From: Nitrospira sp.
GTDB lineage: Bacteria > Nitrospirota > Nitrospiria > Nitrospirales > Nitrospiraceae
Reading direction: 5' to 3'
Length of the DNA: 64,000 nt
Assembly: GCA_029865225.1 (NCBI GenBank)
Contig: JAOUHJ010000005.1
Location: 1 to 64,000 of the forward strand
Shown: one piece after another, positions 12,750-42,476 of the stretch
Layout of the letters: each line of letters starts with the position of its first letter
How positions within the stretch are numbered: the stretch's first letter is position 1
The notes under the pieces: model-generated
Told to the model about the DNA's origin: nothing
Databases searched by the model: none
Seen by the model: only the letters and a program-made list of their open reading frames with translations
Position numbers and translations under genes: made by a program

Positions 12750-12766
12750 TGGCGCAGCTCTTGCTT
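12750..12766 (+). promoter_or_regulatory. sigma-54-type promoter for the zinc-ribbon gene
   Basis: TGGCGCAGCTCTTGCTT matches the sigma-54 pattern TGGCACGN4TTGCW and keeps the obligatory GG-N10-GC spacing. Transcription would start near 12777, giving a leader of about 34 bases with the GGAGG ribosome site of the gene at 12811. No activator site was identified. Confidence 0.5.
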
Positions 12767-12810: not shown

Positions 12811-12984
12811 ATGGACTGTCCGAAGTGTAGGGGAATGATGCTGTTAGAGCGGTTCTCAGATTTCTTTCTCGTCTTCTATGCCTGGAAATGTATCAACTGC
12901 GGCGCCATTATCGACCGCACCATTTCCAATAATCGCAGCAAGAGCCTGGCAGCCCAAGAATCCCAGGCCGTTGCATCGCGCTAA
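12811..12984 (+). CDS. 57-residue zinc-ribbon protein
   Basis: This is a small protein with two metal knuckles, CPKC at residues 3-6 and CINC at 27-30, separated by an aromatic stretch (RFSDFFLVFYAW). A GGAGG lies six bases before the ATG. The paired cysteines predict one bound zinc ion. The tail is polar, with Ser/Gln/Ala. Such proteins often regulate or support other factors, but the job of this one is unknown. It has its own sigma-54-like promoter and is followed by an intrinsic terminator, so it looks like a single-gene transcript. Confidence 0.7.
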   Translation: MDCPKCRGMMLLERFSDFFLVFYAWKCINCGAIIDRTISNNRSKSLAAQESQAVASR

Positions 12985-34369: not shown

Positions 34370-36754
34370 TTATCCTCTGAGTTCTGCGAGGGTTTGTTCT
34401 GCCTCAGATCTGCCTTCAAATGCATCCGAACTCTTGAGAGCCCTTGATAGATGCATCCGAGCATCCGCACGTTTCCCGGACTGCGTGAAGGCGATCCCAA
34501 GATGATAATTCAGCACCGAACTATCCGGAGATTTGGCGACCGCAGACTTCAGCAAACGAATCGCCTCTTCTTGATGCCCCATCTTGAACCGCACCCAACC
34601 AAGGGTATCGATGAATAGAGGGTGTGGGGCGTCTTTTTCAAAATCGCGACTCAGGGCAAACGCCTTTTGCAGGCTTGACGGATCGCCCTTTCGATCCACC
34701 AGCAACACGGCCAAGTTATTCGCCGCCAAGACATTCCGTGGATTCAGACGCAGCACCGCTTCATACGCGGCCATCGCCCCATCAACCTGTCCCTGTGCAG
34801 AACGCGAGGAAGCCAGCAGCATGTATAACTCTTCGCTTTCCGGATTAGCCTTCAGACCATCTTCGACGATTTGCACAGCAACCGCGGGCTGTTTCTCTGA
34901 GAGTGACAACCCGGCCCAATTCAACCATGGCGTCAGCCATTTTGGATTTAATCGCACCGCCTCCCGATATTCTCGAGCTGCCGCTTCACGCTCGCCCAGA
35001 AGAGACAACACTTCCCCCAGTAATCCATGCGCAAAGGGATGATCCGATCGAGCCGCGAGGAGGGCCTGCAAGCGACCCCGAGCCTTAGCTGTCTGTCGTT
35101 GAGACACCTCCACTTTGAGCAAAGCCAGCAGTGGTTCTGGCTCGTTGGGAGCCGAGACAATCGCCCGCTCATACGCACGCCCCGCGTCATTCAATCGATG
35201 TTGTGCCTCATAAAACCGTCCTTCCGCCAGCAGTGCGACGTGGTTCTCACCTGACACGCGGCGAAGCTGCGCCAAGGTTCGCTCTGCTCCCGACCAATTC
35301 TTCGTCATCAAATCCAGTGTCATGAGCATGTCTAGAGCCGCAACATCATCGGGACGCTGCTTCAGCAGATCGTCGAGTCGAGCACGTGCTTGCTGATACC
35401 TGCCACTCCGACTCTCCAGAACCGCTAGCGATCGCTTGGCCTCGACCTGATCGGGATACAGAACAACGGCCCGCTCAAGACTTTCCTTCGCTAGATTGGT
35501 TTCTCCAGTGAGCTGGTAGGCCTGGCCCAATAGATAGTGGACCGTCGCGAGTTCTGGTTGATCGTGCAGAACCGTGCGGAATGCCTGAACCGCATCTTTT
35601 GCATTCCGTCTTGCCAAGGCCATACGTCCTGACAGGATCAACCCATCGGAAGATCGAGGATTCTCTTTCAACACCTCCTGCACCTGACGTTCCGCTTCAA
35701 CCTGCTTTCCGGCTAAGAGATCCATTTCCGCCAATCGTACCTTTGCCTCCAACCCAACCGGACCATCTTTGAATTCTTGAACGAGTTCGCTATATCGGTC
35801 TCGTGCCTTTTCGTCTTGCCCGCTCTTTCGGTAGAGTACAGCCAATCCGAACTGTATGTGACTTGCACGCGGCAGATGGGCGGCAGCATCAAGAAGCACA
35901 CGTTCCGCACCAACGAGATCCTTTCGGTTTACAAGAAAGTCAGACAGTGCTAGCCGACGCTGCTCGTCGTCCGGGTCCAATGCAATCGCTTCGCGCAAAA
36001 CAGCCTCAGCCTTACCAAAGGCATCTCGACCGATATAGAAGCGGACCAGCCTGATTCGATGGTCCATGGATAGGGGCTCGGTCTCGATCATGCGACGAAG
36101 GATCGTCTCGGCGCCCGTCCAATTATTTGCGCTGGCGAAAACCGCGCTCAAATTATTGAGGAGATCGAGGTCCTTGGGGTGCTGCTGGAGCGCACGCTGA
36201 AGCGCCTGCTCTGCCTCTCCATACCGTTTCTGATGTCGATATAACGTCGCTAGGAGGATGGCGACATCCGGCTCTGTCGGAAACTCCTTGGCGAGGGCCT
36301 CGGCCTTGGGAGTGGCCACGGAAACGCCTTGCTCCGTCACAGTCTGCGCCGCAATCTTTAGAGCGGCAGCTTGAGGATGTCGTGGATCTTTACGTAGGAC
36401 TGCATCAGCAACCTCCGACACCTGATCTGTCAGCCCAGCTTCAAGATAATATTTCCCCAGTGTAATGAGAGCGGCCGCGTGATCGGGAACCAATCTGACG
36501 GTTTCCTGGTATAACTGCACCGCGTTACGCCAATTCTTTTCCTTTTCTTCCACCCGAGCAAAGAGGTAATAGGCCTCTCCGTCCTTGGGATCAATTTTCA
36601 GGACGTTTCGGAGCGCGACTCTGGCTTTGGGATAATTCGCGGCATCCATATATTCATGCGCTCGAGAGAAATACTTTGCTTTTCTCTCTTCAGGACCACC
36701 ACATGCGGTCAGCGTGAATACGATGAAGGCGATGATACTCGGTCGAACAATCAT
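34370..36754 (-). CDS. prsT: TPR-repeat lipoprotein of the exosortase system (PrsT-like)
   Basis: This 794-residue lipoprotein has a signal ending TLTAC (Cys18) followed by about 20 tetratricopeptide repeats covering nearly the whole length. This matches the large TPR lipoprotein found beside exosortase in PEP-CTERM systems. It probably acts as a periplasmic or outer-membrane scaffold for polymer synthesis or export. The stop is 10 bases before the export gene start, so translation is probably coupled. Confidence 0.85.
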   Translation of the reverse strand: MIVRPSIIAFIVFTLTACGGPEERKAKYFSRAHEYMDAANYPKARVALRNVLKIDPKDGEAYYLFARVEEKEKNWRNAVQLYQETVRLVPDHAAALITLGKYYLEAGLTDQVSEVADAVLRKDPRHPQAAALKIAAQTVTEQGVSVATPKAEALAKEFPTEPDVAILLATLYRHQKRYGEAEQALQRALQQHPKDLDLLNNLSAVFASANNWTGAETILRRMIETEPLSMDHRIRLVRFYIGRDAFGKAEAVLREAIALDPDDEQRRLALSDFLVNRKDLVGAERVLLDAAAHLPRASHIQFGLAVLYRKSGQDEKARDRYSELVQEFKDGPVGLEAKVRLAEMDLLAGKQVEAERQVQEVLKENPRSSDGLILSGRMALARRNAKDAVQAFRTVLHDQPELATVHYLLGQAYQLTGETNLAKESLERAVVLYPDQVEAKRSLAVLESRSGRYQQARARLDDLLKQRPDDVAALDMLMTLDLMTKNWSGAERTLAQLRRVSGENHVALLAEGRFYEAQHRLNDAGRAYERAIVSAPNEPEPLLALLKVEVSQRQTAKARGRLQALLAARSDHPFAHGLLGEVLSLLGEREAAAREYREAVRLNPKWLTPWLNWAGLSLSEKQPAVAVQIVEDGLKANPESEELYMLLASSRSAQGQVDGAMAAYEAVLRLNPRNVLAANNLAVLLVDRKGDPSSLQKAFALSRDFEKDAPHPLFIDTLGWVRFKMGHQEEAIRLLKSAVAKSPDSSVLNYHLGIAFTQSGKRADARMHLSRALKSSDAFEGRSEAEQTLAELRG

Positions 36755-38494: not shown

Positions 38495-40069
38495 TCAGTC
38501 AGGGACAAACCGATTCAATTCATGTCCGATCTCGGCCGCAAACTCCTGGAGACGTTGGTCGACCATCGCCTCGGATTCACCTGGACCGACCAACGAGGCG
38601 AGTCTCACCAGCGCACCGTCGGTACGTTGTCGTGAGATCGCATCCCACAGCAAGAACAACTTGACCAAATACTCATCCGCGAGATACCGGTCCCGTTGCT
38701 TGAACCAGTACAGGACAACCTGCTTTTGATCACCCTTGCGAATGACTGCACGATTCGCCATGACCGGCCGCTTCATCTGTGGTGACGACGGCAACTCCTT
38801 GTGAGTGAGGGAAGCGATCTCCCAACCTCCACCAGGCAAGCAACTCTTGGGTGAGTGGGCGGACTGCCCTTTTCGTTGTGATCCATAGTAGGCGGAATAG
38901 AAGTTGACCAGGTGCTCAGGACCTGAGCGGTAGTCGGCTAGCACGTAATCGTCAAATCGGAGTGCATCGATATACTGTTTTTCAAGCGGAAACCGCTCGC
39001 CTCGCCACGAGCCGATCTGCATCGGGAAGTCAACAAACGTCATCCTCTCAGGGGGAATCTCCTCACGATCGGCTAACGCGCTCGAAAGCACCGTAAATGG
39101 GATGAGCAGGGCTACGCTGCACAGATAGGCCGGACTAGGAGTAGGCACGATCCGGCTCGGTCTGGTCGACGTGCTCGCCGGACCAGAATCCTTGGACTGT
39201 TGTCCCCATGAAAACTGCACCAGGAATGGCTGATTCGGCTCGACTGCGCCGATCCTTCCCAACAACCCCATTTCTATGATCAGCAGGGCCAAACTCACCA
39301 TGAAGATGACCCAGCCCTCGAAGAGATGGTAAAAGCCTTCCGCCGCCCCCTTTCCATAGAGTTCGACCAGTACGCCGATCATGCCGATCCGAAATCCATT
39401 GAGAAGGATTGAAATAGGAATCGCAGAGAGTACAAGAACAACTCGTTTCCACATCTTGTCCTTGAACAGATACGCGCAGAGCAGCGCAAGAGCCGTTAAG
39501 GGAAGCAGATACCGAATCCCACTACAGGCTTCGACAACCTGAAGCTGAACTTGTCCAAGATCGATGACATTGCCTTCGCGAAACGCGATCACCCCAACGA
39601 GCTGCAAACACCCGACTCCAAGGGATGACGACCACAATTGAAGCTGGCTCGACAGATTCGCGTAGAAGAAGGTCGGAAGTGGGATCGCGGTCAAAAGATA
39701 TCCAAGAGGAAATGCGATGGCTTGAGCCCCCCGAAGACCGAGTAGCGTGATGGATAACCCAACCAAGACGACCCACAATGAGACATGCAAGAGGACAAAC
39801 AACGTGGACAGCTCCCCTACCACATAGAGGATGAGCCCCACCGTAATGATAGGGATCCCCCACCAGGACTTTTCCTTGGCAATCTGGCTGAGACGATGAC
39901 GTGATTGCCAAACTAAATACCCGCTGATGAAAGGCACAAATATCCCATGACTAGAGTCCTCGCTACCAAGCCATCGGCTCAACAGAAACACGAGGCTGTC
40001 CGCATACATGTATGCGAGGAGCGAAACGATCAGAGCCGATGCGATAACAAGGGAGCGTGTGCTAGACAT
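38495..40069 (-). CDS. xrtD: exosortase fused to an EpsI domain (XrtD-like)
   Basis: This 524-residue membrane protease/transpeptidase is thought to process C-terminal VPxPx sorting signals. The N-terminal part (about eight membrane segments) has the catalytic set Cys182 (EACSGIR), Arg227 (NGFRIG) and His248 (FYHLFEG). After about 310 comes the EpsI domain with SCLPGGGWEI. The fusion and the neighbouring VPLPA-type substrate point to the XrtD branch; the symbol is a judgement from architecture. Confidence 0.85.
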   Translation of the reverse strand: MSSTRSLVIASALIVSLLAYMYADSLVFLLSRWLGSEDSSHGIFVPFISGYLVWQSRHRLSQIAKEKSWWGIPIITVGLILYVVGELSTLFVLLHVSLWVVLVGLSITLLGLRGAQAIAFPLGYLLTAIPLPTFFYANLSSQLQLWSSSLGVGCLQLVGVIAFREGNVIDLGQVQLQVVEACSGIRYLLPLTALALLCAYLFKDKMWKRVVLVLSAIPISILLNGFRIGMIGVLVELYGKGAAEGFYHLFEGWVIFMVSLALLIIEMGLLGRIGAVEPNQPFLVQFSWGQQSKDSGPASTSTRPSRIVPTPSPAYLCSVALLIPFTVLSSALADREEIPPERMTFVDFPMQIGSWRGERFPLEKQYIDALRFDDYVLADYRSGPEHLVNFYSAYYGSQRKGQSAHSPKSCLPGGGWEIASLTHKELPSSPQMKRPVMANRAVIRKGDQKQVVLYWFKQRDRYLADEYLVKLFLLWDAISRQRTDGALVRLASLVGPGESEAMVDQRLQEFAAEIGHELNRFVPD

Positions 40070-40193: not shown

Positions 40194-40225
40194 GGGCTTG
40201 ATACCCATCACAGGGTATCAAGCCC
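40194..40225. terminator. 13-bp perfect hairpin after the VPLPA-CTERM gene
   Basis: GGGCTTGATACCC at 40194-40206 and GGGTATCAAGCCC at 40213-40225 pair perfectly with a 6-base loop. On the minus strand it lies 26 bases after the VPLPA-CTERM gene stop and is followed by GGTTCTTT. It probably ends most of that transcript or protects its 3' end, lowering expression of xrtD downstream. Confidence 0.65.
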
Positions 40226-40250: not shown

Positions 40251-40964
40251 CTAGACCTTGGATCCGTGGAGATTCCTCAAGCCACCCGCACCCAAACCAA
40301 CCAAGGAGATCAGCCCAGCACCGAAGAGCACCACCGCTGCCGGCAATGGGACCGCTGTCAAACTGGTGATCGATCCGACATAGGCGGACGGAATGCCACC
40401 CGCATCCTCGAAAAAGAGCCGCCACCTCACACGATCTGAGGCTGGAACGCCCCCCAGACTCCCAAAACTGGGTGGATCTTGTAGGCTTGTATCACTAAAC
40501 AATCCCCCTCCCGTACGGTCGTAGCGAAGATCAAAGTTGAACGGTGCAAAGGCGCCGTCAGCCGGGTTGCCCGTCGGCACCAGTAGTTCAGTACTAGTCG
40601 CTGCAGAGACCAATGCCCAGCGATCGAGAGTGCCACCGAACAGCGACGGCATATCCTTCGCAACCGTCACGGCGTTGGCGCCAGGAGTATACGTCGACGT
40701 ATACTGGAGTATCCCGTTGGCACTATAACTCCAGGTGAAGTCCGTTACCGCGCCATTGTAGACCCCACCACTCCCACTCCTTGCGTTGTCGAAGGTAAAG
40801 GTGCCGGAAACGGAGTAGATACTACTGGGATCGTTGTCAAAGTTTCCGGCGAACGAGTAGGTCACCGGGGCAGCTTGCGCTGCTGCGAAAGGAACCAACA
40901 AGGAACAGACCGCGGCAGCCGCTAGTATGCCCCCTCTGCTAAACAATGATCGAATCATCCTCAT
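40251..40964 (-). CDS. VPLPA-CTERM sorting-signal protein
   Basis: This is a 237-residue exported protein. A signal peptide (ending about AAAQAA) precedes a Gly/Ser/Thr-rich body. The C-terminus has the tripartite sorting signal: VPLPAAVVLFGAG, a membrane helix, then a short basic tail (LRNLHGSKV). It is the likely substrate of the exosortase encoded downstream. GAAGGAG precedes the ATG, and a sigma-54-type promoter lies upstream. The body has no family I recognise; such proteins are usually surface or matrix components. Confidence 0.88.
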   Translation of the reverse strand: MRMIRSLFSRGGILAAAAVCSLLVPFAAAQAAPVTYSFAGNFDNDPSSIYSVSGTFTFDNARSGSGGVYNGAVTDFTWSYSANGILQYTSTYTPGANAVTVAKDMPSLFGGTLDRWALVSAATSTELLVPTGNPADGAFAPFNFDLRYDRTGGGLFSDTSLQDPPSFGSLGGVPASDRVRWRLFFEDAGGIPSAYVGSITSLTAVPLPAAVVLFGAGLISLVGLGAGGLRNLHGSKV

Positions 40965-41031
40965 ATCACCGCTCCTTCTAGATGTTGGTTAGAGGTTGGT
41001 CATTAGGAACACGCATGAATTGAACTTCTAC

Positions 41032-41047
41032 AGCAAATCTCGGGCCA
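41032..41047 (-). promoter_or_regulatory. sigma-54-type promoter for the VPLPA-CTERM gene
   Basis: On the minus strand TGGCCCGAGATTTGCT fits TGGCACGN4TTGCW with GG-N10-GC spacing. The start of transcription would be near 41020, giving a leader of about 55 bases. In exosortase systems the PrsK/PrsR two-component pair and RpoN are known to drive PEP-CTERM protein genes, which agrees with this site. Confidence 0.6.
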
Positions 41048-41150
41048 TCTTTCGATCCGACCTATGTCCATGCAAAACCAAGAATCATGATGGAAGGTCG
41101 TAGTAGCCACTGTGTCTAGCTTCCTGCAGCATTGTTCAAAATTGTCTGCG

Positions 41151-42476
41151 TCAGCGACCCCGCGGCAAAACTTTCCCAGCACTCAGCCTCTCATCGTTGT
41201 ACTGTTCCCATGTTTCCTCGTACAGGCTTTCCCTCTTGTCGGACTGAGAGGATGTCATGTGGCCGACCGTTTCGATCAGAGCACTCAGTTTTCTAGCAAG
41301 CGCGGTCCGATCGAAATGCTTGATGACATAGGTTCGTCCATTCCTGCCCAGCTGTTGACACAACTCAGGTTTTCGAGACAGCTCCAACACTTTGGCAGCC
41401 AATTCATCGGGTTGTTCAGGCTCGATGCAAAGACCTGCCTGTGCTGCATGGATAAGTTCTGCGCTTTCTCCTTCCACGCCTAATAGTATTGGTTTCTCCA
41501 TTGCCAGGCTCTCGAAAATCTTTGACGGAATCACCGTCTTAAAGAGCTCCGACTTCTTGAGTAGCACGAGACTGACATCCGACAGCGCCCAAAGCTCGCG
41601 CATGCGGCTCTTCGGTTGTTGATCGAGCATCACGACGTTATCGAGTCCCATCTCGTGTCGCATGCGTACGAGTGCTTGACGTTCAGCTCCATCGCCGACC
41701 ATCAGGAAGACAACATGCTTTGAATGACTCAATCGATGGGCTGCCTGCAAAACCGTCTCAAGATGATGCGCCATGCCATGAGTCCCGAAATAGGACACGA
41801 CAAACTTTCCCTTGACTCCAAGTTGCTCTGCCAAAGAACCCACTTTGTCACATGGAGCATATTGGGCGAGATCAACGCCATTCTTGATGACCACGATTTT
41901 GTCGTCTTCGATACCCTTGTTCAGCATGTATGCTCGAAATGCATCGGTGACCGGTACGATCCGATCCGCCTTGCGATAGGCGAATCGCTCGATCCATTCG
42001 AGCATCTGAATGATTGCAGGACTTTTGATGGCGCCCACAGCCACAATGGATTCTGGCCATAGATCACGGATCTCCAGCACCCAAGGGATTCGTCGCAGTC
42101 TGCTGACCACGTACCCTGCGAGACCATTAAAGAATTGTGGAGAGGTTGAAAGAACGACGTCCGCTTTCGGCAGAAAGAGGGACACGACGGAGGCGGAACA
42201 CATGTATGAGATGTAGTTTAGGGTTCGTTTGAAGAACCCTTCGTTCGCCGTAATGAACGTCCACACCCTGAGAACAGTGATGCCGTCTCTTGTTTCGCGC
42301 TGATACAACCGATTGCGATAACCTTCATAGACTTTTCCTTGTGGATGATTCGGGGCACAGGTCACTACTGTCACCTGGTGACCGTCTTTCACCCACTGCC
42401 GACAATGTTCGTACGTTCTAGTCGCGGGGGCGTTCACCTCCGGAGGGAAATAATGTGATAGGAAGAGAATTCGCAT
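41151..42476 (-). CDS. glycosyltransferase family 4 (WbuB/WcaI-like)
   Basis: This is a 441-residue GT-B enzyme. The N-terminus MRILFLSHYFPPEVNAPATR is typical of WbuB-like transferases acting on amino sugars. The C-terminal donor domain contains GDGAERQAL and the ExxxxG-type stretch KIFESLAMEKPILLG. It probably adds one residue of the repeat unit. The start overlaps the upstream heparinase-like gene by 59 bases in another frame. The C-terminal 30 residues are polar and add nothing recognisable. Confidence 0.87.
   Translation of the reverse strand: MRILFLSHYFPPEVNAPATRTYEHCRQWVKDGHQVTVVTCAPNHPQGKVYEGYRNRLYQRETRDGITVLRVWTFITANEGFFKRTLNYISYMCSASVVSLFLPKADVVLSTSPQFFNGLAGYVVSRLRRIPWVLEIRDLWPESIVAVGAIKSPAIIQMLEWIERFAYRKADRIVPVTDAFRAYMLNKGIEDDKIVVIKNGVDLAQYAPCDKVGSLAEQLGVKGKFVVSYFGTHGMAHHLETVLQAAHRLSHSKHVVFLMVGDGAERQALVRMRHEMGLDNVVMLDQQPKSRMRELWALSDVSLVLLKKSELFKTVIPSKIFESLAMEKPILLGVEGESAELIHAAQAGLCIEPEQPDELAAKVLELSRKPELCQQLGRNGRTYVIKHFDRTALARKLSALIETVGHMTSSQSDKRESLYEETWEQYNDERLSAGKVLPRGR

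Follow-up and report, generated by a model that had tools for sequence, protein, structure and literature searches.

A predicted sigma-54 promoter unit for XrtD substrates in Nitrospira, apart from the PrsK/PrsR system

The 186-bp intergenic region in front of a VPLPA-CTERM substrate gene of Nitrospira appears to constitute a complete sigma-54 promoter unit, at which an NtrC-type activator other than PrsR would switch on the substrate separately from its exosortase. We place the probability of this reading, which is drawn from sequence comparison, at about 85%. The best reading of the promoter is as a variant of proteobacterial PEP-CTERM control that would be dedicated to XrtD substrates. The window analysed here is the whole stretch of 64,000 nt from contig C133 of the Nitrospira genome G000, and it was compared with the rest of that genome and with homologous loci.

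The locus and its sigma-54 element

All features of the locus are carried on the minus strand. The VPLPA-CTERM gene (40251..40964, ATG at 40964) encodes a protein of 237 aa with the C-terminal tail TAVPLPAAVVLFGAGLISLVGLGAGGLRNLHGSKV, its very end reading VPLPAAVVLFGAGLISLVGLGAGGLRNLHGSKV, and is followed by xrtD, a WecA-like transferase gene and a PrsT-like TPR gene; on the upstream side, 186 bp away, comes a glycosyltransferase gene (41151..42476). Exosortase attaches its substrate protein to the cell surface, and the enzyme encoded here (38495..40069), which is fused to an EpsI domain, is identified as the VPLPA-CTERM-specific exosortase XrtD by a score of 535.7 bits against TIGR04152 (cut-off 400). 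The substrate protein scores 11.6 bits against the VPLPA-CTERM profile TIGR03370, below the cut-off of 25.35, and possesses a VPLPA motif, a hydrophobic stretch and a basic end that are common to its homologues. The TPR lipoprotein gene (34370..36754) falls just short of the PrsT model (TIGR02917, 291.9 bits against a cut-off of 312.2). We note that this near match occurs in a genome from which PrsK and PrsR are absent, and PrsT-like proteins may accompany exosortase loci independently of PrsK/PrsR.

In line with a preliminary description of this DNA, which had placed an exact GG-N10-GC element about 70 bases before the substrate gene, the sequence TGGCCCGAGATTTGCT is found at 41032..41047 (-), reading from 41047 to 41032 and ending 67 nt before the ATG. 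Its GG-N10-GC core lies within the flanks TGGC...TTGC[AT] that mark a sigma-54 -24/-12 promoter. From the promoter geometry, transcription is predicted to start at an A at 41021 (-), 12 nt downstream of the -12 C, with a leader of 57 nt that includes a ribosome-binding site, AAGGAG (40972..40977), recognised from its sequence and conservation. Scored with an approximate matrix based on the published sigma-54 consensus, the element is the top sigma-54-like 16-mer on either strand of the window (16.4 bits), where only four sites exceed 11.5 bits. The only sigma-70-like match in the region is at chance level and lies away from the element.

The second-best of these sites, TGGCGCAGCTCTTGCT at 12750-12765 (+), is followed after about 45 nt by a short unlisted ORF (12811-12984), whose 57-aa product has two CxxC pairs (MDCPKCRGMMLLERFSDFFLVFYAWKCINCGAIIDRT...). 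The identical 16-mer stands in the same place at two paralogues in other parts of the genome (L341 on C20 and L342 on C81). Because they keep it despite diverged flanking DNA, small zinc-ribbon-like proteins may form a sigma-54 regulon of their own.

Bare motif matches prove little, as they stand at chance level in this genome. With up to one mismatch, TGGCNNNNNNNTTGCT is found 20 times in the window where 15 matches are expected, and the family consensus TGGYCYRNNNNTTGCT is found six times in the genome as against seven for its reversed control. None of the other five matches of the consensus precedes a VPLPA gene, four of them lying within coding regions as judged from the ORFs and one (C106:3060) being apparently intergenic. 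Motif counting was accordingly dropped as a proof of the promoter. These counts would suit an element that is a chance match in intergenic DNA, a reading refuted by conservation at a single position in dozens of homologous regions, which leaves it a vanishingly small probability.

For this comparison, homologues of the VPLPA protein were gathered from 72 XrtD loci and 59 related genomes, yielding 60 distinct upstream regions. The pattern [TCG]GG[CT]C-N7-TGCT, sought 40-80 nt before the start, is present in 46 of the 60 regions, the window included, in a comparison that draws nearly all its evidence from one genus. Markov-shuffled regions gave a mean of 0.05 matches and a maximum of 1, and no match fell in six further 40-nt slices of the 60 regions. 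Regions lacking the element all belong to distant homologues, with identities of no more than about 35%. Among the 46, L131 (36% identity) is missing the upstream blocks described below, and its element may be a chance match. Columns outside the imposed GG and GC are near invariant as well (TTGCT, and C at -22), as compared with a consensus of only about 50% in the neighbouring spacer columns. The family as a whole deviates from the classical consensus in having C rather than A at -22, and most relatives have T at -23.

Upstream blocks, hairpin and distribution

Two further conserved blocks lie upstream of the element. The more distant, ACAATTTTGAACAATGCTGCAGGAAGCTAGACACAG (41110..41145, minus strand), has the glycosyltransferase stop at its edge and is a probable enhancer, with TTGAAC at 41139-41134, ACACAG at 41115-41110 and no obvious dyad. 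In the XrtD clade of at least 61% identity (group 1), TTGAAC-N18-ACACAG starts 88-92 nt upstream of the sigma-54 element, with a mode of 90 nt, and the distance is 92 nt in the window. Across the 59 genomes this pattern gave 14 matches, as against three for the reversed control; 12 of the 14 coincide with the positions of VPLPA genes, and the other two are an identical unrelated match. The middle block, CTTGGTTTTGCATGGACATA at 41063..41082 (-), differs from the family consensus CTTAGTTTTCAGNGACATA by one inserted base. Combined with the sigma-54 element it gave nine matches in the 59 genomes, all before VPLPA genes, and none in the control.

That these blocks are conserved as well as the element itself might suggest that they are the site of some other regulator, or part of an RNA leader, and that the GG-N10-GC is incidental; the non-canonical -24 part, with YC in place of CA, would fit such an account. 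Against it, the near-invariant columns are the ones that sigma-54 reads (T-GG and TTGC), they stand at the right spacing and the positions between them are looser; moreover, no Rfam family matched the promoter region, and the sole sigma-70-like match is the chance-level one noted above. We consider this explanation decidedly unlikely.

Between the substrate gene and xrtD lies a perfect 13-bp stem-loop (40194..40225, minus strand; z = -5.9), which was scored as a terminator and is probably a terminator or attenuator. In most group-1 relatives with more than 68% XrtD identity, an 8-14 bp stem recurs in a similar position, roughly 125 nt ahead of xrtD, with compensatory base changes (GGGCTTGATACC / GGGCATGGTATC / GGGCTGGATATC). 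The T-run is weak, and a terminator, an attenuator and a processing site are all possible.

Taken together, the preferred reading is of a sigma-54 promoter unit that would work as follows. RpoN RNA polymerase would bind the -24/-12 element and start near 41021, remaining in a closed complex until an NtrC-type activator opened the promoter by ATP hydrolysis. The activator would sit on the TTGAAC-N18-ACACAG block about 90 bp upstream, an enhancer role suggested by the conserved spacing of the block and the presence of 23 NtrC-type activator genes in G000, and a factor bound to the CTTAGTTTTCAGNGACATA block would perhaps assist. At the hairpin before xrtD the transcript would probably end or be attenuated, which would let the substrate be induced independently of its exosortase.

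The unit is present at nearly all group-1 loci with enough upstream DNA and at none of those examined from the second Nitrospira XrtD clade (at most 57% identity), Geobacter and other lineages. At L042, L044, L051, L052 and L090, VPLPA genes are paired, in tandem or at a short distance, and both members of a pair carry an upstream block and element of their own; judged by sequence, the promoter was duplicated together with the gene. In G019, the full promoter also stands before an intact orphan VPLPA gene away from xrtD. In G019 (L167) and in RSF1 (L053), a stop or frame break interrupts the VPLPA copy adjacent to xrtD, and the intact orphan gene that carries the full promoter is found at a different place in the genome. 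The preliminary description had predicted a wider regulon, and G000 gave no sign of one: the upstream block is single-copy, and the genome's other PEP/VPLPA-CTERM profile matches are weak and have no such element. Those of the matches that were examined were mostly not sorting tails and were rejected as substrates. Since the tandem pairs and the G019 orphan carry the unit and the second clade does not, the regulon would comprise one or a few genes, and in relatives at most a few substrate genes.

The activator

The earlier proposal that a VPLPA substrate is under sigma-54 control through PrsK/PrsR, the system familiar from other floc-forming bacteria, divides at this point. Its first half is upheld by the element, by an rpoN gene in G000 (TIGR02395, 438.5 bits, cut-off 277) and by the 23 activator genes. 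Its second half is not borne out, as both PrsK and PrsR are absent and the enhancer differs. A search of the whole genome, beyond the window, found no PrsR-like activator over cut-off (TIGR02915, best 438 bits against 502.6; genuine PrsR proteins of the genus score 574-629 bits), and the best match to PrsK (TIGR02916) reaches 120 bits against a cut-off of 300. Haft et al. 2006 found PEP-CTERM motifs only in Proteobacteria and described a 17-nt motif 1, ending in TTTACA, 32-92 nt before a sigma-54 motif that lies on average 71 nt from the start (PMC1569441). None of the three features that define membership of the PrsK/PrsR regulon, namely PrsR, PrsK and this motif at that distance, is found here, which argues that the VPLPA promoter does not belong to it.

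A PrsK/PrsR regulon in which PrsR bound to a PEP-CTERM box activates RpoN polymerase at the VPLPA gene would have in its favour the kind of gene and sigma factor, the distance of 67 nt against a mean of 71 nt (PMC1569441) and the PrsT-like TPR gene in the locus, as well as the co-occurrence of PrsR with the promoter in G012 and of PrsK with the promoter in G032. However, the lack of both genes largely refutes it for G000, and G022 and G019 carry the promoter with no PrsR over cut-off. Among same-genus genomes, PrsK is present in 1 of 23 that bear the promoter as against 4 of 12 without it (Fisher p = 0.04, not corrected for phylogeny). Furthermore, the PrsR genes of G011 and G012 adjoin VPEP genes with TTTACA boxes upstream, and two full TGTAAA-N5-TTTACA palindromes precede the VPEP genes at the G011 PrsR locus. 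This palindrome, which we deduced from the text of Haft et al. (PMC1569441) and from the G011 locus, occurs with up to two mismatches in 0 of 61 VPLPA upstream regions, and the window reads GACAATTTTGAAC. We regard activation through PrsR at the VPLPA gene as very improbable. As PrsK/PrsR is absent from G000, the palindrome is absent and PrsK shows the distribution given above, the system does not appear to be the general activator of these promoters.

The activator is most likely one of the 23 NtrC-type proteins other than PrsR. Ten of these are common, among the matches listed, to three distant promoter-bearing genomes (C97, C164:3913, C67, C135, C162, C168, C85, C164:8996, C146 and C124), and it seems reasonable to suggest that the activator is among them. 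The presence or absence of the 23 in three promoter-bearing and six promoter-less genomes gave no clean match with that of the promoter among the matches listed. No activator gene adjoins xrtD in the loci examined. A receiver gene beside the orphan VPLPA gene of G019 was rejected as the activator; it encodes 246 aa and has no sigma-54 activator domain.

Two of the ten candidates are members of a probable flagellar cluster. The first 20,000 nt of their contig (L335, G000:C164:1-20000) hold a flagellar-looking cluster (flgB, flgC, fliF and fliG-like genes) in which two NtrC-type activators and an AtoS-like kinase are also encoded. Either regulator (C164:3913-5271 or C164:8996-10309) might activate the VPLPA gene and bring the substrate under co-regulation with motility. 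The three promoter-bearing genomes tested have both, several promoter-less genomes are without the one and several without the other, and both stand, as read from the sequence, amid the flagellar-looking genes. Yet G009 has both and is promoter-less, loss of motility could account for the pattern, and the upstream block, as a single copy, stands before no other gene in G000, flagellar genes included. This assignment is unlikely.

Comparison with known systems

Like the proteobacterial PEP-CTERM box promoters, to which the targets of Desulfovibrio DVUA0057 are comparable (PMC3333781), the unit described here serves a stand-alone exosortase-substrate gene from a -24/-12 element some 70 nt ahead of the start, with an enhancer-like block upstream, a stem-loop after the gene and a PrsT-like TPR gene in the locus. 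In Aquincola, pepA is RpoN-dependent, with a mapped start and a stem-loop before prsT, which is itself unaffected by disruption of rpoN1 (PMC9850573). Unlike those promoters, the unit belongs to another phylum and to the XrtD/VPLPA rather than the XrtA/PEP class; it carries TTGAAC-N18-ACACAG in place of the 17-nt box ending in TTTACA, has an extra middle block and a nearly fixed spacing, and is found in a genome without PrsK/PrsR.

Within the genus, the PrsK/PrsR loci of Nitrospira (L337-L339, from G012, G011 and G017) share a sigma-54-type activator and exosortase substrates with this system. They differ in that the PrsR gene adjoins VPEP-type genes with TTTACA boxes, which form clear palindromes in G011, and in that G011 and G017 have promoters of the TGGCAC...TGC type. 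We lean, by a small margin over even odds, towards a second Nitrospira sigma-54 circuit for exosortase substrates, apart from PrsK/PrsR, in which a dedicated TTGAAC-N18-ACACAG enhancer would be kept at a distance of about 90 bp from a promoter of non-canonical form (TGGYCYG...TTGCT) and a new activator would serve XrtD substrates only. The group-2 XrtD loci (L071-L092, 46-57% identity, including N. moscoviensis, L082) also possess XrtD, and several have a VPLPA-type gene upstream, but none has a sigma-54 element with the upstream block.

In the literature searched, the term VPLPA-CTERM turned up in one paper and no description of XrtD control was found, and nothing on this regulation was seen in the accessible portions of the few papers that mention Nitrospira together with PEP-CTERM. 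Nitrospira nitrifiers live in the flocs and biofilms of treatment plants and are common in sewage sludge, and the promoter offers a concrete DNA target for asking what makes nitrifiers display a substrate protein on their surface. Earlier descriptions of exosortase substrates under sigma-54 control come from Proteobacteria and link that control to PrsK/PrsR. The same logic appears here in Nitrospirota, with another exosortase class and another enhancer and without PrsK/PrsR, which suggests that placing surface-anchored matrix proteins under tight sigma-54 gating is a solution reached more than once.
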